Assembly (NCBI GenBank): GCA_003138855.1
Contig: PLHF01000044.1
Location: forward strand, 1-49,485
From: Acidimicrobiaceae bacterium
GTDB lineage: Bacteria; Actinomycetota; Acidimicrobiia; Acidimicrobiales; RAAP-2
Direction of reading: 5' to 3'
DNA length: 49,485 bases
The notes beneath the pieces were generated by a model. It was not told the origin of the DNA. It saw nothing but the letters and a program-made list of their open reading frames with translations, and did not search any database. Positions 1,139 to 42,843 of the stretch are shown piece after piece; positions within the stretch are counted from its first letter, which is position 1; each line of letters begins with the position of its first letter. The position numbers and the translations under genes were made by a program.

Positions 1139-1224
1139 GAGCACCGGGGGGCTCGGTCCTCGCCGGACGGCCGGCCCGATCCTCCGGGGGAGGCGGGTCC
1201 CGGTGGCCGGTAGGCTCCTCCGAC

Positions 1225-3216
1225 GTGGCCGACGCTCCCGACGACGTTCCCTATCAGTCGCTCTATCGGCGATTCCGACCGTCGACCTTCGGCGAGGTCC
1301 GTGGCCAGGACCACGTCGTGCTCGCCCTCCGCAACGCGGTCAGGGACGGCCGCGTGGCACACGCCTACCTGTTCAGTGGGCCGCGGGGGACCGGCAAGAC
1401 CTCGACGGCCCGGATTCTGGCCAAGGCGCTCAACTGCACCGACCTGCAGGACGGCGAGCCGTGCGGTGTGTGTGCCTCCTGTGTCGAGATCACCAAAGGC
1501 TCCTCGCTCGACGTGCACGAGCTCGACGCCGCGTCGAACAACGGGGTGGACGCCATGCGCGACCTGGTGTCGCGTGCGGCACTGGGAACGCCGGGCCGCC
1601 AGAAGGTCTACATCGTCGACGAGGTCCACATGCTCTCGACGCCCGCCTCCAACGCCCTGCTCAAGACGCTCGAGGAGCCGCCCGCCCACGTCGTCTTCGT
1701 GCTGGCCACCACCGACCCCCAGAAGGTGCTGCCCACCATCCGCAGCCGCACCCAGCACTTCGAGTTCCGCCTCCTCGGCCCCGAGACGCTCGGTGAGCTG
1801 CTGGCCCAGGTGCGCCAGGACGCGCACCTCGACGTTCCCGACGAGGCGCTGGACCTGGCCGTCCGGCGTGGCCGTGGATCGGCTCGGGACGCGCTCTCGG
1901 TGCTCGACCAGGTGGCGGCGTCCGATGCCGTCGACGACGACCTGCCCGAGCTCGACGAGGTCGTCGAGGCCCTCGCCGAACGGGACATCACCCGCGCCCT
2001 GGTGGCGGTGGCCCACCTGACGTCCGCCGGGTTCAGCCCCCAACAGTTGACCGGCGACCTGGTCGACCACCTCCGCCAGGGGTTCCTGGCCCTGGTGGCA
2101 CCGGGGCTGGTGACGGTCTCCGGGGCCGAGCGGGAGTCGCTTGCCGCCCAGGCCGAGCGGGTGGGGCTGGCGGCGCTGGTGCGGGCCCTGGAGGTGCTGG
2201 GGCGGGCCCAGGTCACCATGCGCGATGCGCCCGATCCCCGGGTCAATCTGGACGTCGCCCTCGTACGGTTGGCCCACCCGGAGGCAGACGACTCGCCGGA
2301 GTCCATCCTGGCCCGGATCGAGCGGCTCGAGGCCGCCGTCCGTGCCGCACCGGTCACGCTCTCCGCTCCCTCGGCCCCGCCACCCTCGCCTGACCCCGGG
2401 CCGGCCGCGGCCGGCCACCGACCGGCACCCTCCGAGCCCGACCCCGCCCGAGCCGCGGGTCGTCATGAAGCCGGTCCCCGGCCCTCCGCCGCCGGAGGCC
2501 CCGGCGTCGAGGAGCCCCCTCCCGGCACCACGGCATCGAGTCCGAAGACGTTGGGTGCAGTGCGCCGGCAGTCGGCTCCTGCCCGGGCCGAGGCAACACC
2601 GGTGCCTCCCCCCGCCGCGCCCGTACCTCCACCGGTCCGGGACGAACCAACACCCACTGCGCCTGCTGCCCCATTGGCAACGGTCCCGTTCCCGACCCGC
2701 GACCAGCTGGTCCAGGTCTGGGGCGATCACATCATCGTGGGCCTCCGACCCAAGGCGAAGGCGCTGTTCCAGGCCGGTCGGTTCGTCGGCGTCGAGGACG
2801 ATCGGGCTGTGTTCGGACTGCCCAATGAGATCCACCGCCGGCGATGCGAGGAGATCCACGAGGAGATCGAGGCGGCGCTGTCCGATCACTTCGGCCGTCC
2901 GGTGGGCCTCACGTTGGTGGTCGATCCCGGTGCCGGAAGCTGGTCGGAACCGGAGGAGGGCGGTTCCCCGAGTGGCGCACCCACCGGGGCGCCCACCACG
3001 AGGAGCTCCGGCCCGGCCACCCCCGCGACAGGGCAGGCCCCGGCCCCGGCCGCTCGCCCACCAGCTCCCGCACCCGACCACGATGGCCAGCCGGACTCCG
3101 ACCCCGCCGAGGACCTCGCGGACTTCGACGAAACGGAGCTGGAGATCGCCGAGGTGGACAACTCGGCGGAGGCACGTGTCCTCCAGGCGTTTCCGGGCGC
3201 CGAGGAGGTCGGCTAG
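1225..3216 (+). CDS. dnaX: DNA polymerase III subunit gamma/tau
   Basis: Clamp-loader ATPase subunit of the replicative polymerase. The 663-residue product has a P-loop GPRGTGKTS (52-60), four zinc cysteines (71, 80, 83, 86), Walker B DEVH (132-135) and the LLKTLEEPP stretch typical of DnaX. A long proline/alanine-rich linker (about 375-490) is followed by a tau-like C-terminal domain and an acidic tail. The GTG start at 1225 is chosen because homology begins there and a TAGGCT -10 box at 1211-1216 would start transcription almost on it, giving a leaderless mRNA. recR follows with no gap. The ybaB/ebfC gene that often separates dnaX and recR is absent. I see no obvious slippery heptamer for a gamma product. 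Confidence 0.95.
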   Translation: MADAPDDVPYQSLYRRFRPSTFGEVRGQDHVVLALRNAVRDGRVAHAYLFSGPRGTGKTSTARILAKALNCTDLQDGEPCGVCASCVEITKGSSLDVHELDAASNNGVDAMRDLVSRAALGTPGRQKVYIVDEVHMLSTPASNALLKTLEEPPAHVVFVLATTDPQKVLPTIRSRTQHFEFRLLGPETLGELLAQVRQDAHLDVPDEALDLAVRRGRGSARDALSVLDQVAASDAVDDDLPELDEVVEALAERDITRALVAVAHLTSAGFSPQQLTGDLVDHLRQGFLALVAPGLVTVSGAERESLAAQAERVGLAALVRALEVLGRAQVTMRDAPDPRVNLDVALVRLAHPEADDSPESILARIERLEAAVRAAPVTLSAPSAPPPSPDPGPAAAGHRPAPSEPDPARAAGRHEAGPRPSAAGGPGVEEPPPGTTASSPKTLGAVRRQSAPARAEATPVPPPAAPVPPPVRDEPTPTAPAAPLATVPFPTRDQLVQVWGDHIIVGLRPKAKALFQAGRFVGVEDDRAVFGLPNEIHRRRCEEIHEEIEAALSDHFGRPVGLTLVVDPGAGSWSEPEEGGSPSGAPTGAPTTRSSGPATPATGQAPAPAARPPAPAPDHDGQPDSDPAEDLADFDETELEIAEVDNSAEARVLQAFPGAEEVG

Positions 3217-3822
3217 ATGGCGGTGTTCTCCGGTCCGCTGCAGTCTCTGATCGACGAGCTGGGCCGGCTGCCGGGCATCGGGCCCAAGTCGGCCCAGCGG
3301 ATCACGTTCCACCTGCTGAAGGTGGCACCCGAGGATGCGCTGCGGCTCGCGGAGGCGATCATCGCCGTCAAGGAGCGGATCACGCTGTGCACCCTCTGCT
3401 TCAACGTCGCCGAGGGCGGCCTGTGCGCCATCTGCCTCGACGACCGCCGCGACGCCGCCTCGGTCTGCGTGGTGGAGGATCCCCGCGACATCGTCTCGGT
3501 GGAGAAGACGGGGGAGTTCTCGGGGAAGTACCACGTCCTGCAGGGTGCGCTCAACCCGATCGAGGGGATCGGGCCGGACCAGCTCCGGGTGCGCGAGCTG
3601 CTGGTGAGGGTGGAGGAGGAAGGCATCAAAGAGGTGATCCTCTGCACAAATCCCAACCTCGAGGGTGAGGCCACGGCCATGTACCTGGCCCGCCTCCTGA
3701 AGCCCATGGGGCTTACGGTCACCCGGATCGCCAGTGGTCTGCCGGTGGGCGGCGACCTCGAATACGCGGACGAACTGACCCTCGGCAGGGCGCTCGAGGG
3801 TCGCCGCGAGGTGGAGGGCTGA
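3217..3822 (+). CDS. recR: Recombination mediator RecR
   Basis: RecFOR pathway protein that loads RecA at gaps. The 201-residue length is normal. It has an N-terminal helix-hairpin-helix ([11 protein letters not shown], 18-28), a C4 zinc finger (Cys58, 61, 70, 73) and a Toprim domain with the VVEDPRD and [11 protein letters not shown] segments. The ATG directly follows the dnaX TAG, so the two are translationally linked. Confidence 0.96.
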
Positions 3823-3910
3823 CCGGCCCGGGGGCGAGCAGTGGCGCCGGGTGGGGCGGTGCGGGCCCCGCGGGGAGCACCGATCGCTCCGATTGGGGCA
3901 CCATGAGGGG

Positions 3911-4504
3911 ATGTCGACGTCAGTGAAGCCGCCGGTTCGGCACCTCTGGATCCTGCGCCACGGCAAGGCTGCCTCCGATGCCCCGTGGGGCGGGGGTGAC
4001 CGGGAGCGCCCCCTGACCGCCCGCGGGCGCCGTGACGCCACCGCGCTCGGGAAGCGACTGGGGGGTGAGGTGCCGATCTTCGGGATGGACGGCGTTCCCG
4101 CTCCCGACCTGGCCGTCTGCTCGGATGCCGTGCGGACCCGGCAGACCGCCGAGCTGCTCATCGAGGCGACGGGCCGCCCGCTACCGCTCGACTCGTACCG
4201 CTCGCTCTACGGAGCCGACACCGACCTGGTGCTCCGGTACCTCCGGGAGATCGACGAAGGGGTGACCGGAGCTCTGGTGGTGGGGCACAACCCCACCATG
4301 CACCATCTCATCTGGGAGTTGGTCGGCGGGGACGGGGTCGGGGACTGCGGGGCCGCAGGGGGAGCCCCCGGTGGTCGTGCCGTACTCGAGGCCCAGGGTT
4401 TCCCGACCTGCGCGCTGGCCGTGCTGGCCATCGGTGTGGGCGGGTGGGAGGACCTCGCTCTTGGAGGCTGCACCCTGGTCGGTCTGTTCAAGCCTCCCTA
4501 CTGA
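3911..4504 (+). CDS. SixA-like phosphohistidine phosphatase (histidine phosphatase superfamily)
   Basis: A 197-residue histidine phosphatase. The catalytic RHGKA motif lies near residue 16, SDAVRTRQTAELL forms the second arginine motif, and VVGHNPTMHHL supplies the second catalytic histidine. These features place it with the short SixA-type enzymes that remove phosphate from phosphohistidine, though the true substrate is not visible. The ATG at 3911 leaves a short N-terminal extension; an out-of-frame ATG at 3903 lies just upstream. The gene is convergent with the thiolase, with a GC-rich hairpin between them. Confidence 0.82.
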   Translation: MSTSVKPPVRHLWILRHGKAASDAPWGGGDRERPLTARGRRDATALGKRLGGEVPIFGMDGVPAPDLAVCSDAVRTRQTAELLIEATGRPLPLDSYRSLYGADTDLVLRYLREIDEGVTGALVVGHNPTMHHLIWELVGGDGVGDCGAAGGAPGGRAVLEAQGFPTCALAVLAIGVGGWEDLALGGCTLVGLFKPPY

Positions 4505-4510
4505 GCCGTG

Positions 4511-4527
4511 GGGCAGGCGCCCTGCCC
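4511..4527. terminator. GC-rich hairpin between convergent genes
   Basis: GGGCAGG, a CGC loop and CCTGCCC form a perfect 7-bp stem between the stop codons of the SixA-like gene and the thiolase. There is no T-tract, so termination is inferred from position and could act in both directions. Confidence 0.45.
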
Positions 4528-4538
4528 GCCCCGGGCTG

Positions 4539-5720
4539 TCAGAGGGTGCGCAGGATGGCCGCGTCGCCCTGGCCGCCGCCGCCGCACAGGGCGACCGCCG
4601 CCGTGCCACCGCCCCGGCGCTTCAGCTCGAGGAGCGCGGTCAGCGCCAACCGCGTGCCGGACATGCCCACCGGGTGGCCGAGGGCGACGGCGCCGCCGTT
4701 GACATTGACCACATCCTCGCCGAGGCGCAGGTCGTCGGCAGAGGCCAGGCCCACGGCGGCGAACGCCTCGTTGATCTCGAAGATGTCGATGTCACCGGTG
4801 GCGAGGCCGGCCTTGGCCAGTGCCACCGAGATGGCATGGGATGGCTGGTGGAGGAGCGACGGGCTCAGTCCGGCAACCTGGCCGTAGCTGACGAGCTCAC
4901 CGATCGGGCTGAGCCCGAGCTCTTCGGCCTTGGACTTGGACGTCACGATGACCGCGGCACCGCCATCGGAGATCTGGGATGCGTTGCCGGCTGTGATGGT
5001 GCCGGTCTTGTCGAAGGCCGGACGCAGTTTGCCCAGTGACTCGGCGGTCGTCTCGGGGCGGACGCCCTCGTCGGTGTCGACCACCAGTGGGTCACCCTTG
5101 CGCTGGGGCACCGTGACCCCGACGATCTCCTCGGCGAACTTGCCGTCCTTGATGGCGGCCGCGGCCCGCTCGTGGGAGAGGGCGCTGAAGGCGTCCTGGC
5201 GCTCGCGTGACACGCCGTCGGCGCCGTTGTAGCGCTCGGTTCCGAGCCCCATCGCGCAGTTGTCGAACGCGCAGAACAGTCCGTCGTACATCATGGAGTC
5301 GACGAGCGTGGCATCGCCGATCCGGTAGCCGGCGCGTGCCCCCGGCAGCAGGTACGGAGCCTGGGTCATCGACTCCATCCCCCCGGCGACCACGATGTCC
5401 GCCTCACCCGCATTGATCAGCAGGTCGGCCAGGTAGATGGCGTTGAGGCCGGACAGGCACACCTTGTTGATGGTCGAGGCGGGCACGTCCAGCGGGATCC
5501 CGCCCTTGGTCGCCGCCTGGCGCGCCGTGATCTGCCCGGTCCCGGCCTGGATCACCTGTCCCATGAACACGTAGTCGACCTGCTCGGGCTTGATGCCGGC
5601 CCGCTCGAGGGCACCGGCGATGGCGAAGCCGCCCAGGTCCGTGGCCGAGAAGGACCCGAGGGCCCCCGAGAGCTTGCCGATCGGGGTGCGGGCTCCTGCG
5701 ACGATGACGGTTCCGGGCAT
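4539..5720 (-). CDS. Acetyl-CoA C-acetyltransferase (thiolase)
   Basis: Type II biosynthetic-like thiolase of 393 residues that condenses two acetyl-CoA to acetoacetyl-CoA or runs in reverse. The first catalytic cysteine is in [10 protein letters not shown], the GH motif in [10 protein letters not shown], and the second cysteine in [11 protein letters not shown]. The start at 5720 begins the conserved [13 protein letters not shown] and has an SD GGAGG five bases upstream (5726-5730, minus strand). Its placement next to ccr suggests that it supplies acetoacetyl-CoA to the ethylmalonyl-CoA route, but a role in fatty-acid breakdown is equally possible from sequence. Confidence 0.92.
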
Positions 5721-5909
5721 GACGACCTCCGAGGCCTTCCGGCCAGCTAGGGCGGCGTTCCCCCCAAGGGTCCGCCACGACGACAGATCACCATGATACG
5801 GCCTCGCCCGGAGGTCCCACCACACGACACGGTGCGGCGGCCGCGGGGCGGCGGCCTTCTGGCGGCCGCCCGGGTTCCGCGTGGTGTGACCGGGCTATCC
5901 TCGCTTCCC

Positions 5910-7250
5910 ATGCAGGAGTTCCTCTCAGCCATCCGGTCCGACGCCTCCAGCGAGGAGATCGCCGCCATTCCGATTCCGGAGGTCTATCGGGCCGCCCATG
6001 TGCGCCGCGACGAGGTGGGGATGTTCGACGGCCTCGAATCAGCCGAAAAGGACCCGAGGAAATCGCTCCACGTGGGCGACGTGGCGGTACCCGAGCTGGC
6101 CCCCGACGAGGCCTACGTCGCGGTCATGGCCAGCGCCATCAACTTCAACACGGTCTGGACCTCGATCTTCGAGCCGCTGCCCACCTTCGGCTTCCTTGAC
6201 CGGTTGGGCAAGGAGAGCAGATGGGGCGCCCGCCACGCGCTCGACTACCACGTGGTCGGGTCGGACGCCGCCGGCGTGGTCCTCCGCACCGGATCGGCCG
6301 TCCGGAACTGGAAGCCCGGCGACAAGGTGACCGTCCACTGCAACTACGTCGACGACCAGAGCCCGAGCGCGCACGACGACTCGATCCTGGCCGACAACCA
6401 GCGCATCTGGGGGTTCGAGACCAACTTCGGCGGCCTGGCCGACCTGGCCGTGGTCAAGGCCAACCAGCTGATGCCCAAGCCCAGGCACCTGACGTGGGAG
6501 GAGGCCGCCGCCAACGCGCTGTGCAACTCCACCTCCTACCGGATGCTCGTCTCGAAGAACGGTGCCCAGATGCAACAAGGGGACAAGGTCCTGGTGTGGG
6601 GGGCGTCCGGCGGGCTCGGGGCCTATGCCGTGCAGTACGTCCTCAACGGCGGCGGCACCCCGGTCGGAGTGGTGTCCTCCCCCGAGAAGGTCGAGCTGCT
6701 CCACGAGTTCGGGGTGGATGCCGTGATCGACCGCAAGTCCGCCGGGTACCGCTTCTGGAAGGACGAGCACACCCAGGACGAGTCCGAGTGGCGTCGCCTG
6801 GGCAAGGACATCCGGAGTCTGGTCGGTGAGGACGTCGACATCGTGTTCGAGCACCCGGGTCGCCAGACGATGGGCGCCTCGGTGTTCGCCGCCAAGCGCG
6901 GCGGCATCATCATGACCTGTGCGGCCACCTCGGGCTACATGATCGAGTACGACAACCGCCATCTGTGGATGAAGCTGAAGACCATCAAGGGCTCCCACTT
7001 CGCCAACTACCGGGAGGCGTGGGATGCCAACCAGCTGGTGTGCGAGGGGAAGATCCTGCCGCCGCTCTCCGCCGTCTACACGTTGGAGCACGTGGGCGAT
7101 GCGGCCTATCAGGTCCACCGGAACCTCCACGAGGGCAAGATCGGCGTGCTCTGCCTGGCGCCTGAGGAGGGCCTGGGGATCGACGACCCCGAGTTCCGCG
7201 CCGAGGTGGGCGAGGATCGGATCACGCTGTTCAGGAGGCACGGAGCATGA
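5910..7250 (+). CDS. ccr: Crotonyl-CoA carboxylase/reductase
   Basis: NADPH-dependent reductive carboxylation of crotonyl-CoA to ethylmalonyl-CoA, the key step of the ethylmalonyl-CoA pathway. The 446-residue MDR-family protein has the nucleotide motif GASGGLGAYA (231-240). It also shows the set associated with CO2 binding in characterised Ccr: an Asn in NFN (78-80), Phe169-Glu170 in WGFETNFGG, and His363 in KGSHFAN. That set distinguishes it from simple enoyl reductases. The start is supported by a TATCCT -10 box at 5896-5901, eight bases before the ATG, pointing to a leaderless mRNA. The epimerase gene overlaps its stop by four bases. Confidence 0.95.
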   Translation: MQEFLSAIRSDASSEEIAAIPIPEVYRAAHVRRDEVGMFDGLESAEKDPRKSLHVGDVAVPELAPDEAYVAVMASAINFNTVWTSIFEPLPTFGFLDRLGKESRWGARHALDYHVVGSDAAGVVLRTGSAVRNWKPGDKVTVHCNYVDDQSPSAHDDSILADNQRIWGFETNFGGLADLAVVKANQLMPKPRHLTWEEAAANALCNSTSYRMLVSKNGAQMQQGDKVLVWGASGGLGAYAVQYVLNGGGTPVGVVSSPEKVELLHEFGVDAVIDRKSAGYRFWKDEHTQDESEWRRLGKDIRSLVGEDVDIVFEHPGRQTMGASVFAAKRGGIIMTCAATSGYMIEYDNRHLWMKLKTIKGSHFANYREAWDANQLVCEGKILPPLSAVYTLEHVGDAAYQVHRNLHEGKIGVLCLAPEEGLGIDDPEFRAEVGEDRITLFRRHGA

Positions 7251-7657: not shown

Positions 7658-7695
7658 CGTAGATCGGACTCGCCCAGGGGTAGGCTGTCCCCATA

Positions 7696-8820
7696 ATGAG
7701 CACAGCCATCACGGCCCGCGCGGCACTGCCCACGGATACCGATGGTGACGAACTTCTCGAGGCCCCGGCGCTCGACGTGCACGCCCCGGCGGCCCAGGCG
7801 ACCCTGACCCTCGGAGTTCCGGTCGTCTCCTCGCAGGCGCGCCCCGTCCCGGCCATCCCCGTCCCGGTCGCCGCGCCGACCACCTTCCTGGTGCCGGACC
7901 GGTCGGCCGACCCTGCGGGGTCGATCAGCACTGCAGCAGGCCACCCGATCGAAGCGTCACCCGAGGCCCCCGGACGATCGGTTGTCCCCGAGCGCTCACC
8001 GGGTCGCGAACGCGGGGGCGAGGCCGACGAGGGGTTCGCCCCCGGGGTCTCAGCAAAATTACGCTCCTACGTCTACCTCCTGGTCGATCCCCGCACCGGA
8101 CGGGCCTTCTGCGTGGGCCGGGGCCGGGGCGACCGCTGCTTCGACCACGTGAGGGCGGCGCGACTCGGTTCCGATGGGATCGCAGAGGTGGCCGGCAACC
8201 CACCCGGGTACCCGATGCTGGAGCGGATCAGGGAGGTCGAGTCCGATGGCCGGCCCGTCCGCATCGACATTCTGCGCTACGGGCTGAGCTCGGAGGAGGC
8301 GTTGCTGGTCGAGGCCGTCGCCGGGGATGCGCTCGGACTGGCCTGTGGCCCCGAGGTCGTCAGCCGACGCCGGCCGGTGACCGAGGTTCGTTCCCTCCTG
8401 GCCAAGCGGGCCAAGTTCAAGCGGGGGCACCAAGTGGTGCTGCTCCGGGTCGGGGGTACGGGAGCAGACCCGTCCTACGAGCAGACCCGGCACAGTTGGC
8501 GCATCGGACGGCGGTGGATCGACCTCGACTCCCCGCGCTCGCCGCAGTGGGCCGTCACCGTCGTCGGCGATCTGGTCGCCGCCGTCTATCGGATCGAAGG
8601 GTGGGAGACGACCGCCGACCCGCGGGAGCCCGCCCACGGTTCGGGCAGTCCGGGCGGTACCGCGCACACGGTGGACCGCTACTCCTTCACCGGGACGCGG
8701 GACGCCGAGATCGAACGGCGCTACGTGGGGAAGAGTGTCGCCGCCTATCTGGGTGCGGGGGCGCCGAGTCCCGTGACCTACGTGTGGTGCGGGCCCCACT
8801 GGGTGAACACCGCCCTCTGA
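7696..8820 (+). CDS. GIY-YIG protein of the LEM-3-like type
   Basis: A 374-residue protein with a long, low-complexity Ala/Pro-rich N-terminus (about 1-120). A GIY-YIG nuclease-like domain follows, with YVYLLVDP near 125-132 and [13 protein letters not shown] near 139-151, in the variant spelling seen in LEM-3/ANKLE1-type domains. The C-terminal domain (about 230-374) contains [10 protein letters not shown] and [11 protein letters not shown]. This resembles the second domain of bacterial LEM-3-like GIY-YIG proteins, as I remember them. Animal LEM-3 cuts DNA bridges and junctions; the substrate here is unknown. A TAGGCT -10 box at 7681-7686 lies nine bases before the ATG. The gene sits between epimerase and pccB with no visible metabolic link. 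Confidence 0.7.
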
Positions 8821-8857
8821 GCTCCCTCGCCCGGCAGGTCCGCTACCCTCGGGGACC

Positions 8858-10414: not shown

Positions 10415-10599
10415 CCGCCCGGGGGGACATCGATCCCGAGGTGGTGGCCGTGCTGACCGCCGCCGCCGATCAGGCGTGGCCGCGGCCCCGGGTGGCGGTG
10501 GCCCAACACGCGGACAAGCCCCCGGCGTGGAGGTTCAGCGGTCGATGGTGGTCGAGGCCGGTCACCGCCCGTCGGGAGCGCCCGCAGGCTGTGGGTTGA
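10411..10599 (+). CDS. Small acyl-CoA carboxylase epsilon-like protein
   Basis: A 62-residue protein whose GTG start overlaps the pccB stop (GTGA). It has an acidic-to-helical N-terminus ([16 protein letters not shown]) and a Trp/Arg-rich end ([11 protein letters not shown]). Small epsilon (AccE/PccE) subunits of actinobacterial acyl-CoA carboxylases have a similar size, position and Trp-rich basic tail. That assignment is inference from context and composition, not a firm family match. Coupling to pccB is clear. Confidence 0.65.
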
Positions 10600-10603
10600 G
10601 CCC

Positions 10604-11457: not shown

Positions 11458-11564
11458 GCCGGGAACGTAGCCCGTGGTGCGGACCAGGGGGTGGACGCCG
11501 ATCTCCCGCTCCCGGGTCCCCCGGGGCCTGCCGGGCCCCACGATGACCAACGTCCGGCGGCGGC

Positions 11565-19430: not shown

Positions 19431-19498
19431 AGGGAACAATCCTAGCGGCGGGCCGGTGGCCACGCCTACGGCCCGCCGGGACGGTCCGTGGGGACGGG

Positions 19499-21898: not shown

Positions 21899-21914
21899 CC
21901 TCTACAGTGGCGCC

Positions 21915-22644: not shown

Positions 22645-23199
22645 TCAGTCGGACTCGGCGATGGTCACCGAGTCGATGACCACCTGTTCGGTCGGGGCAC
22701 CCGACCTGCTGCCCACGGACTCGATGGCCTTGACCACGTCGAGTCCCTTCACCACGTTGCCGAACAGCGAGTAGCTCGGCGGAAGGGCGGTGCCGTTGGG
22801 TCCGCTCACGATGAAGAACTGGCTGCCGTTCGTGTTCGGGCCGGCGTTGGCCATGGCCAGAGAGCCGATCTCATAGCGACCCGGTGCCGGCAGCTCGTCG
22901 GCGAACTTGTAGCCGGGGCCGCCCCGCCCCGAGCCCTCGGGATCCCCACCCTGCAGCATGAAGCCAGGGATGATCCGGTGGAAGACGATCCCGTCGTAGT
23001 AGTGCCAGCGGGCCAGGAACACGAAGTTGTTGACCGTCTTGGGTGCGGCGATCGGATCGAGGGCGATGGTCAGCGTGCCCTTGGTCGTCACCACTTCGGC
23101 CGTGTACCGCTTCTCCGGGTCGATGACCATCGGCGGCGGGCCGTCGAAGCGCTGGGACTTCGGGCTCGAGCCGTCTGCTGCCGGGATCTCTGGGGTCAT
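22645..23199 (-). CDS. Peptidyl-prolyl cis-trans isomerase, cyclophilin type (cytoplasmic)
   Basis: A 184-residue cyclophilin without signal or membrane segment. The core motifs are FHRIIPGFMLQGGDPEGSG (catalytic Arg in FHR), GSQFFIVSG and LFGNVVKGLDVV. An SD-like GGAACAGG precedes the ATG. The next gene upstream on the same strand is a membrane-anchored paralogue, implying local duplication with separate cellular locations. Confidence 0.94.
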   Translation of the reverse strand: MTPEIPAADGSSPKSQRFDGPPPMVIDPEKRYTAEVVTTKGTLTIALDPIAAPKTVNNFVFLARWHYYDGIVFHRIIPGFMLQGGDPEGSGRGGPGYKFADELPAPGRYEIGSLAMANAGPNTNGSQFFIVSGPNGTALPPSYSLFGNVVKGLDVVKAIESVGSRSGAPTEQVVIDSVTIAESD

Positions 23200-23287
23200 G
23201 GCACCTGTTCCTCGTGTCGTGTGCGGCGGGATGGGAGTTGTTCGGCCGGAGGTGGGAGTGGCTGGCCGGCGGGCCGGGCCGGCCCGG

Positions 23288-24130
23288 TCAGGACTCGGTG
23301 ACGGTCACCGAGTCCATGCGGTGGAGGGTGATGGGCGTACCGGTGCTGCTGGAGGCGACCGAGCCGCCGGCGTTGATCTTCTCGACCACGTCCATGCCGG
23401 AGGTCACCTTCCCGAACAGCGTGTAGCTCGGGGCCAGGTTCTCACCCTCGGGGCCGGCCACGATGAAGAACTGGCCGTTGTTGGTGTTGGGCCCGGCGTT
23501 GGCCAGGGCCACCGACCCCAGCGGGTACTGCGGGTTGGCTGTCTTCGGCAGCTCGTCGGCGAACGTGTAGCCGACGCCGCCCGTCCCGGTGCCGGTGGGG
23601 TCGCCCGTCTGGTCCATGAAAGTCTGGATCACGCGGTGGAAGATCATGCAGTCGTAGTAGTGCTGGTTTGCGAGGAACACGAAGCTGTTGACCGCCTTCG
23701 GCGCGGCCTTGGGGTCGAGCTGGATGGTGATCGGGCCGACGTCGGTGGTGATCGTCGCCGTGTACGTCTTGGACGGGTCGATGGTCATCGGCGGGAACGA
23801 CGAGTACGAGGGCTTGTTGAGGGTGGCGCTGAAGCCGGCCGGGCAGTCGGCCGAGGTGGTGATGGCGCTGGGCGACTTGTCGCCCGACCCGCCCGGCCGC
23901 GCCGGAGCGGTGGTGGTCGAGGCGGAGGTGGTGGTCGAGGTCGTCGTGGCGGCGGTCGTCGTCTTCTTCCCCGGCTTGAAGATCAGGTAGGAGACGCCGA
24001 CAACGACGGCTGCCACCACCACGATGGTGATGACGCGCCGAAGGGACTGCTTGCGCTTCTTGACCTTCTGCTGGGCTTCCAGCCGGGATTGCCGGCCGGC
24101 CTTCTGACGTTCACGCTTCTCGGTTCCCAC
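23288..24130 (-). CDS. Peptidyl-prolyl cis-trans isomerase, membrane-anchored cyclophilin
   Basis: A 280-residue protein with a strongly basic N-terminus (1-32) and one transmembrane helix (about 33-50, [19 protein letters not shown]). A Thr-rich linker (55-75) and a cyclophilin domain with [19 protein letters not shown] and GQFFIVAG follow. Positive-inside charges put the isomerase outside the membrane. It likely folds exported proteins. The middle segment [20 protein letters not shown] is shared in position with other actinobacterial anchored cyclophilins. Confidence 0.92.
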
Positions 24131-24170
24131 GGGGGATCAGGGTAGCCGTTCCACTTGGCGCCTCGGTCGT

Positions 24171-24240
24171 CGCCCACCGCCATGCCACCGGGGCGCCCAC
24201 CGCCATGCCACGGGCCCCCACCGCCATGCCACGGGTGCGC
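24171..24240. repeat. Tandem repeat, about 21-22 bp, three copies
   Basis: Three imperfect copies of CCCACCGCCATGCCAC(C)GGG lie between the anchored cyclophilin and lysC, in the upstream region of both divergent genes. No coding function is seen. They could be slippage repeats or binding sites. Confidence 0.7.
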
Positions 24241-24287
24241 CCACCTCCACCGGGACCCCCGCACGGCTCGCTGTAGCCTTGACCCCC

Positions 24288-25583: not shown

Positions 25584-25602
25584 CCACACCGACCTCTCCT
25601 AG

Positions 25603-26643
<1,041 letters not shown>

Positions 26644-27326: not shown

Positions 27327-27395
27327 CCTGCCAACCGTAACCGTTGGGGCGGAGGCCCCTCCGTCGGGTTCGTGGCGCTTTCCGGGCTGCGGTCT

Positions 27396-31726: not shown

Positions 31727-31833
31727 TCCGTCCGTAGGTCGCCGGTGGCCGCATCGCCGGCCGCGGAGATCCGCTCCTGTGGCGGCAGGTGTCGCAGGGT
31801 CCGGGCCCGAGGGGCGGCACTATCGTCATCGAG

Positions 31834-33039
31834 ATGCCGAGGTCCCGCCGTAGACGCCGCCCTGCCGGCCACCGCGGCCTGAGGAGACCGTTTTTGGTCG
31901 GCATCGCCGCCATCTTCACGATCGTGGTGATCCTCGGCTCGCTGATCGAGATCCACGCGCAGTCCAGCGGCTATCGGACGGCGACGGACACCGGGTACGG
32001 GGCCCTGGCATCGCGGGTGGTGGAGGCCTCGAACCAGACCGGGGCCGAATTGGCGGACCTCATGGACAAGGCTCCTCAGCTGCCCAACCAGCTGCTGGAC
32101 GGCACTGCGGTGCCCCAGACGGCGCGGGCAGAGATCCAACAGGGACTCGACCGGGCGATGCGGTCGACTGCGCAACAGGCGTACCAGGCGGACCACAGCG
32201 TGCCCCCGACACCCACCGGTGACGTGAGCCCCCGGTTCACCCAGGTGATGGCGGACCGGGCCTCCGCCGTGTCGGGTCTTCGGGAGACCATCGACCAACT
32301 GCTCGGCATGTCCCCCCTGCCGATCGCCGGCGCGCCGTCGACTTCGGTGCCGCCCAGCTCGGCTCCCCTGATCTCGATCGGCCAGGCGGCCTCGGCCATG
32401 GCCGCCGAGGGCCTCCTCCTCCAGCAGGCCGACGACTCCTACCAGACTCTGCTGGCAGACATCCGCCTGCACCGGATCGCGGTCCATCTGCCGAGGTCGG
32501 TGTGGGTGCCCGCTCCGGTCGAAGCCGCCGCCCTCGGATCCACCCGGCTCGGTGCGTCCGCCTCGGAGCTGTCGGCGTCGGCGGCGCTGGCCCCCTTCCA
32601 CCGGCTGGTGATCACCGCGGTGGGCCTGACCCCCCCCGCTGTTGCCGCGGGCGACGTCGGCATCGTGGGCGACTCGTGCGGCGATCCGCATTCGCTCGTC
32701 CCCGGGCCGACCCCTACGGTGCTGCCGCCGACCACCTCGGTCGCCGCCGCCGTCACCGTGACCAACTGCGGCACGGTCACCGAATCGGGGGTGTCGGTGA
32801 CCGCCACACTGGTGCCGGCCGACCCGCCCGGCACCGCGCCACCGTCTGCCGGCTCCACGGGCGGACGGTCCCGGGCCACGGTAACGGTCCGGTCGGGGGG
32901 ATCCGTGGCCCTGTCGATGTCCCCCCTCGCGGTTGCCGCCGGCCACCGGTTCTCACTGACCATTGCGGTCGCCACACCCCCCGGGCAGGCGGACACCACC
33001 GGGTCCACCCAGGAGTATCTCCTCCAGATATCCGGTTGA
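31834..33039 (+). CDS. Membrane-anchored extracytoplasmic protein of unknown function
   Basis: A 401-residue protein I do not recognise. An Arg-rich cytoplasmic start (RSRRRRRPAGHRGLRRP) precedes one transmembrane helix (about 19-38), then an outside region in two parts: a helical half (to about 240) and a Thr/Val/Ala-rich half (from about 265) that looks like a beta-sandwich, as in CARDB-type adhesion domains. Two cysteines (CGDP and NCGT) may form a disulfide. TATCGT at 31821-31826, seven bases before the ATG, supports the start. Confidence 0.75.
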   Translation: MPRSRRRRRPAGHRGLRRPFLVGIAAIFTIVVILGSLIEIHAQSSGYRTATDTGYGALASRVVEASNQTGAELADLMDKAPQLPNQLLDGTAVPQTARAEIQQGLDRAMRSTAQQAYQADHSVPPTPTGDVSPRFTQVMADRASAVSGLRETIDQLLGMSPLPIAGAPSTSVPPSSAPLISIGQAASAMAAEGLLLQQADDSYQTLLADIRLHRIAVHLPRSVWVPAPVEAAALGSTRLGASASELSASAALAPFHRLVITAVGLTPPAVAAGDVGIVGDSCGDPHSLVPGPTPTVLPPTTSVAAAVTVTNCGTVTESGVSVTATLVPADPPGTAPPSAGSTGGRSRATVTVRSGGSVALSMSPLAVAAGHRFSLTIAVATPPGQADTTGSTQEYLLQISG

Positions 33040-34479: not shown

Positions 34480-34506
34480 CCACCGGGTGGCCCTGCCGGA
34501 CGCCGC

Positions 34507-35397: not shown

Positions 35398-35477
35398 CCA
35401 TGCCCTGGTGTCGGTCGGGACCCGGTCCCCGCGGCGGGCGGGCGCCGGCGATCAGCGTCCCGCTACGGTTACCGACC

Positions 35478-36650: not shown

Positions 36651-36799
36651 CCCCGGACCGGCCACCGGGCCCGACCGCCACGGACCGCGGACTGGACCCT
36701 GGCGCGGGGGGACGGGCCCGCCTTGCCACCCCTGCGGCATCGACCCAGCTCGTCTGGGGGGACCACTGTTACGGTTGCATGACCACTAGGGTTGCCCTG

Positions 36800-37300: not shown

Positions 37301-37436
37301 CCGACCGAGCTCGGATGGACGCCGTGCGGCCTCGCCGGCAATCGGCCGTCACCGGAGCTGACACCGGGTCGCACCCGCTCCACCGGAGCGCTGTACGTTG
37401 TGGATCGGTCGGCGCGCCGACGCCGAGGGAGGTTGG

Positions 37437-38225
37437 ATGACAGGCACCGTGACGAGCAGTGGACCGCTCGTGCTCGTCGTGGCCGTGTTCCTTGCCAGCT
37501 CGGTGGAGATGGTCGAGGCGCTTACGATCGTGCTCGCCGTCGGAGTGACCAGGGGCTGGCGCTCGGCCCTCGAGGGAGTGGTCGCCGCCCTGGTGACCCT
37601 TGCCGCCCTGGTAGCGCTCCTCGGTCCGGCCCTGGTCCATTTCGTGCCCCTGTCGGCGCTCCGGTTGGTGGTCGGGGGGCTCTTGTTGATCTTCGGCCTC
37701 CAGTGGCTGCGAAAGGCCGTCCTCCGGGCTGCGGGTCTCAAGGCCAAGCACGACGAGGACGCCATCTTCGCCGAGCAGGTCGCCGAGCTGACCGCCGCTC
37801 CACCGTCCGAGGGCCGAGCTGCGACCGGATTCGTGGTTGCCTTCAAGGGAGTCTTCCTCGAAGGGCTCGAAGTGGTGGTCATCGTGCTCACGCTGGGGAC
37901 GACGTCCCACCACCTCGGCCTGGCCGCCGCCGCCGCCGCTGCTGCGGTGGTCGTGGTGCTGGTCGCCGGTCTCATCGTCGCCCGGCAGCTGTCCCGCGTC
38001 CCCGAGAACGCCATGAAGATGGGGGTGGGGCTGATGTTGGTCAGCTTCGGGACCTTCTGGTCGGGCGAGGGAGTGGGCGTGCATTGGCCCGGCGCCGATC
38101 TGGCCATCCCGGTGCTCGTCGCCGTCTATGGCGCGGTGGCCTGGGCTCTGGTGGCGCTGCTGGACCGTCGGGACGGGCACACGGTCACGAGTGCCGTCGG
38201 TGCCGGAGGAGCCGACCATGGCTGA
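37437..38225 (+). CDS. Polytopic membrane protein with two ExxE helices (COG4280-like)
   Basis: A 262-residue protein with about seven hydrophobic helices. Two helices carry matching acidic motifs: SSVEMVEALTIVLAVG near the N-terminus and FLEGLEVVVIVLTLG near residue 145. The second resembles the REGLE iron-binding helix of FTR1-type permeases, which points to a metal or ion transporter of duplicated design. That is inference. I recall a COG4280-type uncharacterised family with this opening. SD GGGAGG is four bases from the ATG. The next small membrane gene overlaps its end by eight bases. Confidence 0.68.
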   Translation: MTGTVTSSGPLVLVVAVFLASSVEMVEALTIVLAVGVTRGWRSALEGVVAALVTLAALVALLGPALVHFVPLSALRLVVGGLLLIFGLQWLRKAVLRAAGLKAKHDEDAIFAEQVAELTAAPPSEGRAATGFVVAFKGVFLEGLEVVVIVLTLGTTSHHLGLAAAAAAAAVVVVLVAGLIVARQLSRVPENAMKMGVGLMLVSFGTFWSGEGVGVHWPGADLAIPVLVAVYGAVAWALVALLDRRDGHTVTSAVGAGGADHG

Positions 38226-38475
38226 GGGGGAAGCCCCGAGCGGGTCGCGGCCTCTGGTGGCCCGGTGGATCGTGGGCTTCGGCCACTTCTGGTGGGACTT
38301 CCTGATCGGGGACACCCCCGAACTGTTCGTCGGGGCCCTGGTCGTGGTGGGCTCGGTAGCGCTCCTGTGCCTGGACCACTCGCTGCGCACCGCTGCCGCG
38401 TTGGTGCTGCCCGTGCTGGTGGCAGCCCTCCTCGGGGCCTCGGTGTGGAAGGCGGGCCGAAAGCGCCCGTCCTGA
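38218..38475 (+). CDS. Small two-helix membrane protein coupled to the upstream transporter-like gene
   Basis: An 85-residue protein with a Trp/Phe-rich segment (WIVGFGHFWWDFLIGD) followed by two hydrophobic helices (about 36-55 and 58-76). The ATG lies inside the last codons of the upstream gene (8-base overlap), implying coupled translation and probably a partner subunit. I recognise no family beyond this. Confidence 0.65.
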   Translation: MAEGEAPSGSRPLVARWIVGFGHFWWDFLIGDTPELFVGALVVVGSVALLCLDHSLRTAAALVLPVLVAALLGASVWKAGRKRPS

Positions 38476-38539
38476 GCGGCGCAGGGCTCGGCGACCGGGA
38501 GGACAGGCCGAACCGGGCGGTCCCAGCCGGGTCAGGCGA

Positions 38540-39028
38540 TCAGTCCCGGAAGTTGTTGAACTGCAGCGGAATCCCGAAGTCCTCGGCCTTGCAGGCGTTG
38601 ATGACGGACTGCAGATCGTCCCGCTTCTTGCCGGTCACCCGGAGCTGATCACCCTGGGTCTGGGAGCTGACGCCTTTCAGGCCCAGGACCTTGATGAACT
38701 TGTTGATCTTCTTGGCATGGTCCGAGGAGATGCCGGCCTGGATGGTCAAGCGCTGGCGAGCCGAGCCACGGGACGCCTCTTCGATCTTGCCGACGTCGAA
38801 CGACTTGAGGGAGACCTCGCGCCGAACCAGCTTCTCTTGGAGCACCTGGTAGAGGGCGCGCAGCCGATCCTCGGTGGCCGACGAGAGGATCAGTTCTTTG
38901 TCGGTCAGCTCGATGGTGGAGTCCGTCCCCTTGAAGTCGAACCGGGTGGTGGCCTCCCGGTTGGCCTGGTCGACCGCATTGCGGACTTCCTGCATGTCAA
39001 CTTCGGAAACGACGTCGAAGGTGGGCAT
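38540..39028 (-). CDS. yajQ: YajQ-family nucleotide-binding protein
   Basis: A 162-residue UPF0234/YajQ protein with the N-terminal PTFDVVSEVDMQEVRNAVDQ and ESLKSF-like and GTSRQ-like motifs altered to SLKSFDVGKIE and the C-terminal LQFNNFRD. YajQ proteins bind nucleotides such as cyclic di-GMP in some species. The ATG 39028 begins the conserved MPTFD. A tRNA-Tyr gene lies just upstream on the opposite strand. Confidence 0.95.
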   Translation of the reverse strand: MPTFDVVSEVDMQEVRNAVDQANREATTRFDFKGTDSTIELTDKELILSSATEDRLRALYQVLQEKLVRREVSLKSFDVGKIEEASRGSARQRLTIQAGISSDHAKKINKFIKVLGLKGVSSQTQGDQLRVTGKKRDDLQSVINACKAEDFGIPLQFNNFRD

Positions 39029-39072
39029 GCCGAAACAGTAGCGCCGCACCAGGCGATAACCTTCCGGCCTGC

Positions 39073-39153
39073 GGGTCGGTGCCCGAGCGGCCAAAGGGAG
39101 CAGACTGTAAATCTGCCGCGCAAGCTTCGAAGGTTCAAATCCTTCCCGGCCCA
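39073..39153 (+). tRNA. tRNA-Tyr(GTA)
   Basis: Acceptor GGGTCGG pairs with CCGGCCC (one G-U pair), with discriminator A. The anticodon stem-loop CAGACTGTAAATCTG contains anticodon GTA. A class II variable arm and T-arm GGTTCAAATCC are present. CCA is not encoded (the genome continues CGC). Confidence 0.95.
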
Positions 39154-39317
39154 CGCAGACGAAAGCCCTGGTCAGAGAGGTGTACATGCCTCCCTGGCCC
39201 GGGCGTTCGTCGTTGCAGGAATGGCCGGGCAGCCATGCGCGCTTACCCGGTCCCGGGTGTGCGGGCCCAGCCATCCGGCCCGGGGCACGGCTCCCGCCCC
39301 CGCCGGAGGCTTCGGAT

Positions 39318-39323
39318 TAGGCT
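39318..39323 (+). promoter_or_regulatory. -10 box TAGGCT before the HAD-gene upstream ORF
   Basis: TAGGCT is six bases before the GTG at 39330, the geometry of leaderless genes in this window. No clear -35 is visible. Confidence 0.5.
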
Positions 39324-39329
39324 CCTTGC

Positions 39330-39392
39330 GTGCAGGGCCATTGCTCGCCTACCCGGACCGGGCGCCATCGGGCGTGGCCGGCCCGGCCATGA
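39330..39392 (+). CDS. Candidate 20-residue leaderless upstream ORF
   Basis: A GTG-initiated ORF of 20 codons beginning VQGHCSPTRTGRHR. Its TGA overlaps the ATG of the HAD phosphatase gene (ATGA at 39389-39392). With the TAGGCT box six bases upstream, the arrangement matches the uORF in front of the LarA-like gene. It may be a translated leader that delivers ribosomes to the main start, which has no obvious SD. Unproven. Confidence 0.4.
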   Translation: MQGHCSPTRTGRHRAWPARP

Positions 39393-40237
39393 CCCGCCCG
39401 CGCCGACGCGCCGACCGGGCGGGCGGGCTGCTGCCGATCAGGCTCTTCCTGGCCGACGTCGATGGGACCCTCGTCACCCAGGACAAGGTGCTGACCGACA
39501 GGGCAGTGGACGCCGTACGCGAACTGGGCCAGGCCGGGATCGCGTTCGCCGTCACGAGCGGCCGGCCGCCGCGAGGGATGTCGATGCTGGTGGAGCCGCT
39601 CCAGATCACCCTGCCGTTGGCCGCCTTCAACGGGGGCATCCTGGTCGGCCCCGACATGACGGTCATCGAGCAGCAGGTGATTCCCGAAGTGCTCGTCCCC
39701 CAGATCATGGCGCTCCTCACGGCCGCATCGCTCGACGTCTGGCTCTATCGGGGCGCAGAGTGGTACGTGCGCGACCGCAAGGCCCCCCATGTGGACCGTG
39801 AGGCCTGGACGGTGAAGTTCGAGCCGACGGTGGTCGAGCGCTTCGACGGGCTCACCGACAACGTGGCCAAGATGGTCGGGGTCAGCGACGATCACGACGC
39901 CGTCTCATCGGCGTCCACCATGGTCCGTGACCGCTTCGGCGACCATGTCTCGGCGGCGCCCTCGCAGCCCTACTACCTCGACGTGACCCATCCCGACGCC
40001 AACAAAGGGGCGGTGGCCCGCGTGCTCGCCGCCCGCCTCGGCATCGCGAGCGGTCAGATCGCCACCATCGGCGACATGCCCAACGATGTCCTCATGTTCG
40101 CCCACTCGGGCCTCAGCATCGCCATGGGCAATGCCGACACGCAGGTCCAGCGGGCGGCCCGCCGAGTGACGACCTCCAACGAGGACGAGGGGTTCGCCAA
40201 CGCCGTCGAACGGTTCGTCCTGCCCCGACGACCCTGA
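39389..40237 (+). CDS. Cof-type HAD-superfamily phosphatase
   Basis: A 282-residue HAD hydrolase. Motif I is LADVDGTLV, motif II is AVTSGRPPRG, the lysine of motif III is in DANKGAVARVLAARLGI, and motif IV is IGDMPNDVLMF, with a large C2B cap between. The family dephosphorylates sugar phosphates and cofactors such as FMN or PLP; specificity is not readable. The ATG 39389 is the first plausible start and overlaps the upstream ORF stop. Confidence 0.9.
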   Translation: MTRPRRRADRAGGLLPIRLFLADVDGTLVTQDKVLTDRAVDAVRELGQAGIAFAVTSGRPPRGMSMLVEPLQITLPLAAFNGGILVGPDMTVIEQQVIPEVLVPQIMALLTAASLDVWLYRGAEWYVRDRKAPHVDREAWTVKFEPTVVERFDGLTDNVAKMVGVSDDHDAVSSASTMVRDRFGDHVSAAPSQPYYLDVTHPDANKGAVARVLAARLGIASGQIATIGDMPNDVLMFAHSGLSIAMGNADTQVQRAARRVTTSNEDEGFANAVERFVLPRRP

Positions 40238-40336
40238 GCACCGGCAGGCCCGGCCGCTGACCCAGGCTCCGATGCTGCCGGCGGGCGACACTGCCGGCAG
40301 GTGCGGCCCAGGTAGCGTCGTGCAACGTGGTGGCCC

Positions 40337-40364
40337 TTGAATGGCACCGCCGATTGGTTACAAT
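40337..40364 (+). promoter_or_regulatory. Near-consensus sigma-70 promoter for the mannosyltransferase gene
   Basis: TTGAAT (40337-40342), a 16-base spacer and TACAAT (40359-40364) form one of the best -35/-10 pairs in the window. The start codon of the mannosyltransferase is 152 bases downstream, so the mRNA should have a leader of about 145 bases. I recognise no known riboswitch in it. Confidence 0.6.
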
Positions 40365-40516
40365 GAGGTTACGGATTGATTGCGGTCACGGTTCCACGGG
40401 CATCCGGCGGCACCGGTCGGGGACACGCATTCGACGCCGCGGGCCATCCCGAGCCCTTGCCACATGGGACTGTCTGAGCACGTCAGCAGCCCGACGGAGG
40501 AGAGACCCGAACCTTC

Positions 40517-42199
40517 ATGCCACCCGAACCCATGCCGACCGAGGCGCTCGGAGACGAGCAGCCTCGCGAGTCGCGTGGCACCTCCGGCGGCACCACTGCG
40601 CTGCGGACTGCGGCAGGGTTCGTCGGGTCGTCCCTGCACCGCCTGAAACACACGACGGGCTTCGCCGGCGACCAGCCGCCGGTGGCCGGCGAGGACGCCC
40701 AGCCCCGTGGTCTCGTGCTGCGGCCGGCGCTGCTCGGATTCGTGGCCGTCCTGGCTGTCAGCATCGGGGCGTCGTTGCCCAGCTCCCCGTTCAAGCTGGA
40801 GATGCCCGGGGTCTGGTTCTTCGGCGAGCCCTCGTCGGGCGGGGCGAGCCGTTGGGGCGTCTACTTCTCGCTCGCTGCCGTCTACGGTGGCCTGCTCTTG
40901 TTCATGCGGGTCTGGTGGGGGATGACCCGGCTGTACTCCCGGTGCCCGGGGGTCGCCTTCAAGAAGATGATGTGGGTATTCGCGCTGTGGTCCCTCCCCG
41001 TGCTGGTGATCGCCCCACTGTTCAGCCGCGACGCCTACTCGTACGCCGCCCAGGGCGAGATGGTCAGCCATCACATGAACCCCTACCTGTACGGTCCCTT
41101 CCAGTTGGGGAACAACTCGTACACGGCCCCGGTCGACTCCTTGTGGGGCAATGCGCCCGCTCCCTACGGACCGCTCTTCCTCCAGATCGACGGCTTCTTC
41201 GCCCGGGTCACCTTCCACAACGAGCTGGCAACCATCGTCCTGCTTCGACTCCTGGCCTTCGCCGGGGTGCTGCTCATCGCCGCCTGCGTCCCCCGGCTGG
41301 CCCGCCTCTACCACCGTGACGGGGCCGAGCTGTTCACCCTGATGGTGCTCAACCCGGTGACGATCTTCCACCTGATCGGCGGAGCCCACAACGACGCGCT
41401 GATGCTGGGTCTCCTGGTCGCCGGCCTCACGGCGGCCAAGGAGAAGCGACCGATCGTCGGCATCGTGCTGTGCGCCCTGGCCACCGCAATCAAGGCCCCC
41501 GCGGCGCTGGGGATCCTCTACGTGGGATGGAGCTGGCTCGGCCCCCGGGCCTCTGTCCGCGACAGGTTCAGACCGGTGGTCACCGGCGGGCTCATCGGCG
41601 TGGGCATCCTCGGTTTCTTCTCCTACGTCAGCGGGCTCGGGTGGGGGTGGGTCACCATCCTTGGCTCACCGGGCGCGGTCCGTTCGTGGACGGCGCCCAC
41701 CATGTCCCTGGCGCTGATCACCACCGGAATCGCTCACTTCGTCCACATCGGGGTGGGGTTCGGCGGCGTGCTTTCGGGCACCCGCCTCCTCGGCCTGCTG
41801 GTTGCCGGCGTCTGCGGAGTGTGGCTGCTGTTCAACAGCGACCGGATCGGCACCCTCAAGGCCCTGGGGATCACCCTGCTGCTCTTCGTTGCGCTGGGCC
41901 CGGTTGTGCAGCCCTGGTACCTGTCCTGGGGCCTGATCCTCCTGGCGCCCGTGGCGCTGGGGCGCCTCCGCTCGCTGATCATCGGGCTGTCCATGGTGAC
42001 CGCGTTCATCGAGCTGCCGGGCGGCACCCAGCTGCTGAACAGCCTGCTTCACGGCGACCCCCTGCTGATCGCGCTGACCCTTCTTTGGATCCTCGTGGTC
42101 CTCACCGTTCCCCTGGCCACGTGGGAGCGTACGCAGCCGTTGGCTGCGACCTCCGAGCCGTCGCCCCGGTTGGCGGTCGCGTCGGCTGCCATCCGCTGA
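40517..42199 (+). CDS. Polyprenol-phosphomannose-dependent mannosyltransferase, MptB-like
   Basis: A 560-residue integral membrane glycosyltransferase (GT-C fold) with an N-terminal cytoplasmic tail of about 65 residues and roughly twelve helices. The catalytic loop after an early helix reads LFSRDAYSYAAQG with NPYLYGP and WGNAPAPYGPLF, as in the MptA/MptB alpha-1,6-mannosyltransferases of actinobacteria. IGGAHNDALMLGLL and QPWYLSWG are further family segments. It would extend mannose chains of lipoglycans on the outer membrane face. An SD GGAGGAG lies rather far upstream (40496), so ATG 40532 may also serve. Confidence 0.86.
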   Translation: MPPEPMPTEALGDEQPRESRGTSGGTTALRTAAGFVGSSLHRLKHTTGFAGDQPPVAGEDAQPRGLVLRPALLGFVAVLAVSIGASLPSSPFKLEMPGVWFFGEPSSGGASRWGVYFSLAAVYGGLLLFMRVWWGMTRLYSRCPGVAFKKMMWVFALWSLPVLVIAPLFSRDAYSYAAQGEMVSHHMNPYLYGPFQLGNNSYTAPVDSLWGNAPAPYGPLFLQIDGFFARVTFHNELATIVLLRLLAFAGVLLIAACVPRLARLYHRDGAELFTLMVLNPVTIFHLIGGAHNDALMLGLLVAGLTAAKEKRPIVGIVLCALATAIKAPAALGILYVGWSWLGPRASVRDRFRPVVTGGLIGVGILGFFSYVSGLGWGWVTILGSPGAVRSWTAPTMSLALITTGIAHFVHIGVGFGGVLSGTRLLGLLVAGVCGVWLLFNSDRIGTLKALGITLLLFVALGPVVQPWYLSWGLILLAPVALGRLRSLIIGLSMVTAFIELPGGTQLLNSLLHGDPLLIALTLLWILVVLTVPLATWERTQPLAATSEPSPRLAVASAAIR

Positions 42200-42217
42200 C
42201 GGCAGGCAACCTCCTTC

Positions 42218-42240
42218 CGGGCGGCAGCCAGGACCGCCCG
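42218..42240. terminator. Hairpin between convergent genes
   Basis: CGGGCGG, a nine-base loop and CCGCCCG lie between the mannosyltransferase and the convergent GNAT gene. The stem is perfect, with no T-tract. Confidence 0.4.
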
Positions 42241-42266
42241 ATGGGGGTGACGCCGCCCGCCGTGGT

Positions 42267-42755
42267 TCAGAGCATGTGCTGTAGGACGGAGACGTCCAGC
42301 CAGCGGTTGAACTTCCGGCCGATCTCCCGTTCGACCCCGACCATTTGGAACCCGCAGGCCTCGTGGAGCGCGATCGAGGCCATGTTGCCCCCGCCGATGC
42401 GGGCGATGATGGAGTGGAACCCGTGTTGGTTGGCCAGCGTGACGAGCTCCTCCAACAGCGACCGGCCGACGCCGCTCCCCCGGTGGGACGCATCCACATA
42501 GACCGAGTTCTCGACGGTGGTGGCGTACGAGGGGCGGTCCCGGTACGCCGAAAGGGAGCCGAATCCGAGGACCAGGCCGTCGTCGTCCACAGCCACGACG
42601 GCCGGATAGGGGCCCCGGTGGTCGGCCAGCCATCTGTCCTGCTCCTCGGGGGTGCGCGGGACGAGGTCGAAGGTCGCCGTGGAGCCGACCACCTCGGCGT
42701 TGTAGATCGCACGGATCGGTCCGGCGTCCGACCGTCTCGCCAGGCGAATGTGCAT
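42267..42755 (-). CDS. GNAT-family N-acetyltransferase (phosphinothricin acetyltransferase-like)
   Basis: A 162-residue acetyltransferase with N-terminal IRLARRSDAGPIRAIYNAEV, the ENSVYVDASHRGSGVGRSLLEEL acetyl-CoA loop (R-G-x-G-x-G/A form) and IARIGGGNMASIALHEACGF. This is the pattern of PAT/MnaT-type enzymes acting on small amines or modified amino acids. On the minus strand TACCAT (42762-42767) is six bases before the ATG, so the mRNA is probably leaderless. Confidence 0.9.
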   Translation of the reverse strand: MHIRLARRSDAGPIRAIYNAEVVGSTATFDLVPRTPEEQDRWLADHRGPYPAVVAVDDDGLVLGFGSLSAYRDRPSYATTVENSVYVDASHRGSGVGRSLLEELVTLANQHGFHSIIARIGGGNMASIALHEACGFQMVGVEREIGRKFNRWLDVSVLQHML

Positions 42756-42843
42756 CCGCCGATGGTAGCCAGACAGGGTCCGCTTCTCGATCCGCTCCAG
42801 CTTTGGCTATGCTCTCATCTTTGCTGCTCGCTCGAGCTGCATT

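Follow-up and report, generated by a model that had tools for sequence, protein, structure and literature searches.

TANNNT hexamers next to start codons suggest leaderless transcription of many genes in an Acidimicrobiaceae genome

Many genes of the Acidimicrobiaceae bacterium assembled as GCA_003138855.1 appear to be transcribed from the start codon onward, as is known from other members of its phylum. Our window, the whole 49,485-nt stretch of DNA analysed (contig PLHF01000044.1, positions 1 to 49,485), has a guanine plus cytosine (GC) content of 69% and comes from a 4.0-Mb genome of 155 contigs; the nearest named relatives of its lysC protein are Acidimicrobiia-type metagenome genomes (best identity 83%, "Acidimicrobiaceae bacterium isolate palsa_742"). 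In this window the hexamer TANNNT recurs 6–9 bases before ATG or GTG codons, and these hexamers are very probably −10 boxes of the sigma-A type that would start the mRNA on the start codon itself. A sequence-only reading had listed 14 such cases. All 14 hexamers were found where it placed them, with a spacing (bases between hexamer and codon) of 6–9 to ATG or GTG, and 13 of the start codons were backed by an independent gene caller, the start at 31834 being left undecided. The caller added two cases, a cyclophilin gene (24130, minus strand) and a DUF520 gene (39028, minus strand). The chance rate of 1–2% quoted by that reading is correct for a single fixed start per gene, since A and T make up 15.3% and 15.6% of the window.

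The gene caller was self-trained on codon statistics and blind to upstream signals; it called 663 genes, 45 of them in the window, in an 843-kb sample made up of the window and 60 other stretches. When starts scoring up to 4 units below the best one were also admitted, TANNNT stood at spacing 6–9 in 14 of the 45 window genes versus a mean of 2.3 (range 1–5) at ten control distances (binomial p = 3 × 10⁻⁸). Twelve of these 14 were cases of the sequence-only reading, and widening to 12 units gave 15/45, consisting of 13 of its cases together with the cyclophilin and DUF520 genes. The window contains 67 TANNNT hexamers on both strands, so that about a fifth directly precede a gene. It was about twice as rich as the remaining sample (14/44 versus 84/599, Fisher p = 0.004) and its density therefore overstates the genome; because the window had been picked out by a reader beforehand, this excess carries no further meaning.

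The positional signal was present genome-wide. With starts set by coding signal alone, TANNNT occurred at spacing 6, 7, 8 and 9 in 24, 21, 14 and 6 of 644 genes, whereas the same genes averaged 2.0 per spacing across distances 15–45; at spacing 5–9 this amounted to 66/644 genes versus 10.4. The peak at 6–9 bases, on which the sequence-only reading had staked its proposal, was thus found. TANNNT (66 genes) led 12 words of equal composition, the runner-up reaching 22, and ranked second among 960 gapped three-letter words, after AGG, the words that followed being parts of the Shine–Dalgarno (SD) sequence. Internal in-frame ATG or GTG codons carried TANNNT in 0.2% of cases compared to 10% at starts. 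ATG starts (328 genes) and GTG starts (305) each showed the peak; for TTG the evidence is weak, with 0/11 and few such starts. Allowing starts within 4 units, the signal was seen in 98/648 genes, control distances giving 19.7, for a net share of about 12%; with the window excluded it was 84/603 versus 17.4, and within 12 units 111/649 versus 20–32 at nine control distances. Because only the strict hexamer was counted, these figures are lower estimates of −10-adjacent starts. Genes with the box lay directly (≤20 bases) behind a same-strand gene in 11/95 cases compared to 48/174 for SD genes (p = 0.002) and 73/354 for the remaining genes, and were divergent from their neighbour in 38/95 cases versus 47/174 for SD genes (p = 0.04), the remaining genes being similar (131/354).

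The composition around the hexamers is consistent with a housekeeping (sigma-A type) promoter that would need little or no conserved −35 element. In the 98 own-genome cases no position upstream of the box exceeded 0.12 bit, and the stretch between −32 and −4 relative to the hexamer, where no conserved −35 was seen, stayed at ≤0.06 bit. The T, A and T of the hexamer were in register, with middle bases near background. Aligned orthologous sites (155) added a GG directly before TA, a C four bases before TA, and a weak T at −24 (0.23 bit). RNA polymerase would melt the box and begin RNA at the first purine 7–10 bases downstream, in the usual initiation zone, and this purine would be the A or G of the start codon. 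In the orthologues, the stretch from base seven after the box up to the start consisted of pyrimidines only in 42/49, 45/53 and 7/18 sites at spacing 7, 8 and 9 (even-odds expectation 24.5, 13.3 and 2.3), which would make the start-codon A or G the first purine in that zone. An RNA beginning there would have no leader or a few leader bases, and ribosomes would use the 5′-terminal AUG or GUG directly. The 3′ end of the 16S gene, GGATCACCTCCTTTCT, carries a normal anti-SD.

To follow the box through related genomes, we read 80 named loci for lysC and, for the other genes, searched 79 genomes of the order, our own included (60 family labels), taking the best 30 loci per search, that is, 29 besides our own. 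Unless stated otherwise, counts refer to TANNNT at 6–9 bases before the nearest ATG or GTG in the best 29 loci per gene; the genomes are related and the counts are therefore not independent events. The box was found in 25/29 orthologues of ccr, 25/29 of pccB, 23/29 of asd, 28/29 of hbd and 20/29 of DUF3097. For dnaX, queried with its N-terminal 367 residues, it was found in 18/28 at the nearest start and 23/28 at any candidate start, one locus having no start. The cyclophilin-type peptidyl-prolyl isomerase had it in 10 of 11 usable loci; the other 18 of 29 were dropped for alignments falling short of the N-terminus or for lack of an ATG/GTG start. Control distances in these sets gave 0–2 hits each (0–3 for gltA, an SD gene taken as a control). 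SD-like words at the nearest start were seen in 2/29 ccr, 4/29 pccB, 1/29 asd, 1/29 hbd, 0/29 DUF3097 and 2/30 lysC loci, counts in which box and SD compete for the same bases; gltA had them in 19/29. A second SD control, rmuC, aligned in 26/29 loci with two usable N-termini, TANNNT occurring in 0/2 and SD in 2/2.

For lysC the box was present in 28/30 of the nearest loci and 7/50 of the farther ones (35/80 overall), and an SD-like word stood in 30 of the 50 farther loci; those of Rhodococcus, Nocardia and Gordonia were of the SD type. Four lysC loci (L061, L082, L090, L096) carried TAGCCT or TAACCT at spacing 8; three of them bear the label Geodermatophilus or Blastococcus, and the fourth that of Bacillus sp. 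AZ43, which is unverified. Starts called by coding signal around 63 of the 80 lysC loci (17 that were hard to place or too divergent being left out) gave the box in 54/146 genes of Acidimicrobiia (35/121 without lysC), 4/19 of Geodermatophilaceae, 2/80 of Mycobacteriales, 3/34 of Pseudonocardiaceae and others, 2/32 of Micrococcales and 0/21 of the rest; being small, drawn around lysC and with neighbours in common, these samples are no measure of whole genomes. Taken together, the genome-wide peak, the second rank among 960 words, the conservation in orthologues and the pyrimidines before the start support the leaderless reading.

Several results weigh against it. A de novo two-motif mixture fit (eight random starts, 300 of 649 genes) returned SD and codon-periodic words and did not recover TANNNT; word enumeration was used in its place. 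Among phoU orthologues only 6/27 had the box (2 of 29 lacked a usable start), and the control gltA had it in 6/29, so that SD genes may change type or chance may account for some of the calls. When any candidate start was allowed, control counts rose to 16/29 (pccB) and 14/29 (hbd) at 20–23 bases, presumably because the same box was seen from a downstream codon. The pyrimidine signature was weaker in the genome itself, with 18/30, 17/24 and 2/8 at spacing 7, 8 and 9. A clear excess existed at spacing 8 only (17/24; SD genes 73/177, remaining genes 82/368); the 18/30 at spacing 7 compared with 100/177 and 155/368, and SD genes likewise favoured C at −2. At spacing 9 the transcript could carry 2–3 leader bases. 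An SD test with the hexamer masked gave 2/98 versus 22/545 (p = 0.56), box and SD occupying the same bases.

Among other explanations, an improbable one accepts the −10 boxes and places the true starts farther downstream, behind ordinary leaders with SD sites, the upstream ATG or GTG being miscalled. Start calling is difficult at such GC content, and higher-scoring alternative starts exist for DUF3097, whose start scores 6.2 units under the best one, and for pccB, hbd, asd, GtrA and DUF520 (0.7–2.0 units). The start at 31834 scores 12 units under TTG 31894, which has an SD-like GGAG, and an Arg-rich head ahead of a hydrophobic stretch in the product speaks for 31834; between these two indications the start was left undecided. 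However, the genome-wide peak was obtained from starts set by coding signal alone, the orthologue alignments of ccr, asd, hbd and lysC mostly start at residue 1–3 of the predicted proteins, the start of DUF3097 is backed by its 20/29 orthologues, and the distance to the predicted codon was kept at 6–9 while the flanks were randomised.

Two further alternatives are still more remote. An AT-containing, weakly structured stretch might aid ribosome entry whatever its exact hexamer, as open 5′ regions do aid initiation; this very improbable account is already disfavoured by the eleven other words of equal composition, none of which passed the runner-up's count, and by the register of T, A and T around near-background middle bases. 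The least probable of all is that closely packed operons create a false motif, the TAA or TAG of a hexamer being where the preceding gene stops. The third hexamer base was A or G in 59/98 cases, but in only 7/98 did the hexamer coincide with the stop codon of a gene called upstream, 39/98 hexamers read TAC or TAT, and the proportion of box genes divergent from their neighbour was 38/95, counts by which this explanation is already contradicted.

The promoter reading, in which the start codon would be the first codon and the first nucleotides of the mRNA, has close parallels. Mycobacterium is rich in leaderless mRNAs by experiment (Cortes 2013, PMC3898074; Shell 2015, PMC4633059), and the sequence-only reading had noted that such mRNAs are known in mycobacteria and other actinobacteria. 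The leaderless genes of M. tuberculosis and M. smegmatis described in these two papers share with the predicted ones here a TANNNT −10 without conserved −35, a 5′-terminal ATG or GTG, and a sizeable share of genes, about a quarter of those mapped compared to a strict net of about 12% here, a figure taken from sequence alone. Zheng 2011 (PMC3160421) reports TA-like signals in 86 of 89 actinobacterial genomes at a mean of 19.2%, next to which the density called notable in the sequence-only reading is less remarkable; the Actinobacteria and Deinococcus-Thermus signals of that paper are likewise TANNNT, ~12 bases upstream of the start, and the word Acidimicrob is absent from its main text. In Deinococcus, a different phylum, a 2025 study (PMC12340547) describes TANNNT a few bases before open reading frames, mostly with no classical −35, and its action as a promoter in reporters, whereas our motif is known from its letters. 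StartLink 2021 (PMC9581028) likewise covers this arrangement or its use across genomes. With the arrangement established for Mycobacterium and Deinococcus, the finding is real but ordinary in kind. Literature searches on leaderless genes in Acidimicrobiia and in Ilumatobacter returned no dedicated study; one paper matched by the first names Acidimicrobiia in connection with its anti-SD type.

The interesting part is the gene-by-gene persistence of the box. According to Shell 2015 (PMC4633059), a gene that is leaderless in M. smegmatis is often so in M. tuberculosis as well; the persistence here resembles that of the Mycobacterium pair and extends between families of an order. Active-growth functions are depleted among the leaderless genes of Cortes 2013 (PMC3898074), whereas here the core biosynthetic lysC, asd, ccr and dnaX bear the signal. 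Orthologues sharing the box had an identity of 0.26–0.30 at −60 to −41, about the level expected from composition only, and of 0.29–0.39 at −20 to −1, box included. In relatives, hbd (L263–L291) and ccr (L143–L171) are preceded by a palindrome, TACCGNNCGGTA, whose end falls on the first TA of the start-proximal box. Within 2 mismatches it was found at 17/28 hbd and 7/26 ccr sites with the box and at 0–2 in each of six other gene sets (shuffled rate 0.5–1.8%), the pattern having been chosen after the hbd alignment had been viewed. It resembles a repressor operator that overlaps the −10. The window's own hbd and ccr had no match to it, its frequency in the window was no higher than in shuffles, and the exact word TACCGACCGGTA had no match in the literature searched.

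We give even odds to a broader proposal that selection may maintain the leaderless start as a gene-specific trait passed down across the order, with lysC, asd, ccr, pccB, hbd and dnaX holding a start-locked −10 box while the surroundings turn over, and that in relatives' hbd, and partly ccr, a putative repressor operator may be fused onto the box, one TA serving both repressor binding and promoter melting. The data, with their comparative evidence, would add an Acidimicrobiia-type lineage to those with leaderless expression, suggest a practical start-calling rule for such genomes (TANNNT 6–9 bases before ATG or GTG), and offer candidates for asking why some genes stay leaderless, for example lysC with its contrast between near and far loci.

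Table 1. TANNNT hexamers 6–9 bases before start codons in the window.
Hexamer	Gene	Start	Hexamer position	Strand	Spacing	Remarks
TAGGCT	dnaX	GTG 1225	1211..1216	+	8	called start; NCBIfam dnaX_nterm
TATCCT	ccr (crotonyl-CoA carboxylase/reductase)	ATG 5910	5896..5901	+	8	TIGR01751
TAGGCT	gene at 7696	ATG 7696	7681..7686	+	9	
TACCCT	carboxyltransferase	ATG 8858	8844..8849	+	8	Pfam Carboxyl_trans; pccB in the sequence-only reading
TACGTT	DUF3097	GTG 11457	11464..11469	-	6	
TAGGAT	hbd (3-hydroxybutyryl-CoA dehydrogenase)	ATG 19430	19439..19444	-	8	
TACAGT	peptidase S51 family protein	ATG 21915	21903..21908	+	6	
TACCCT	cyclophilin-type peptidyl-prolyl isomerase	GTG 24130	24139..24144	-	8	divergent from lysC
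TAGCCT	lysC (aspartate kinase)	ATG 24288	24274..24279	+	8	
TAGACT	asd	ATG 25612	25600..25605	+	6	
TACGGT	phoU-like gene	GTG 27326	27334..27339	-	7	orthologue support weak
TATCGT	gene at 31834	ATG 31834	31821..31826	+	7	start undecided
TACGGT	glycosyl hydrolase family 1 protein	GTG 35478	35464..35469	+	8	
TAGGGT	GtrA family protein	ATG 36800	36787..36792	+	7	
TACTGT	DUF520	ATG 39028	39035..39040	-	6	
TACCAT	GNAT acetyltransferase	ATG 42755	42762..42767	-	6	

A Pfam search at 1e-5 gave no match for the product of the gene at 7696, leaving the GIY-YIG name of the sequence-only reading unconfirmed. The DUF520 product we take to be YajQ. Upstream of dnaX lies a small signal recognition particle RNA (1035–1133), the dnaX box starting 77 bases past its end. 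The minus-strand cyclophilin gene and the plus-strand lysC are divergent, with back-to-back start-proximal boxes ~130 bases apart (24139–24279). The region 22645–24130 holds two neighbouring minus-strand cyclophilin-like genes, 22651–23271 matching the protein of 23291–24130 at 52%, and adjacent cyclophilin-like pairs were also seen in several relatives.

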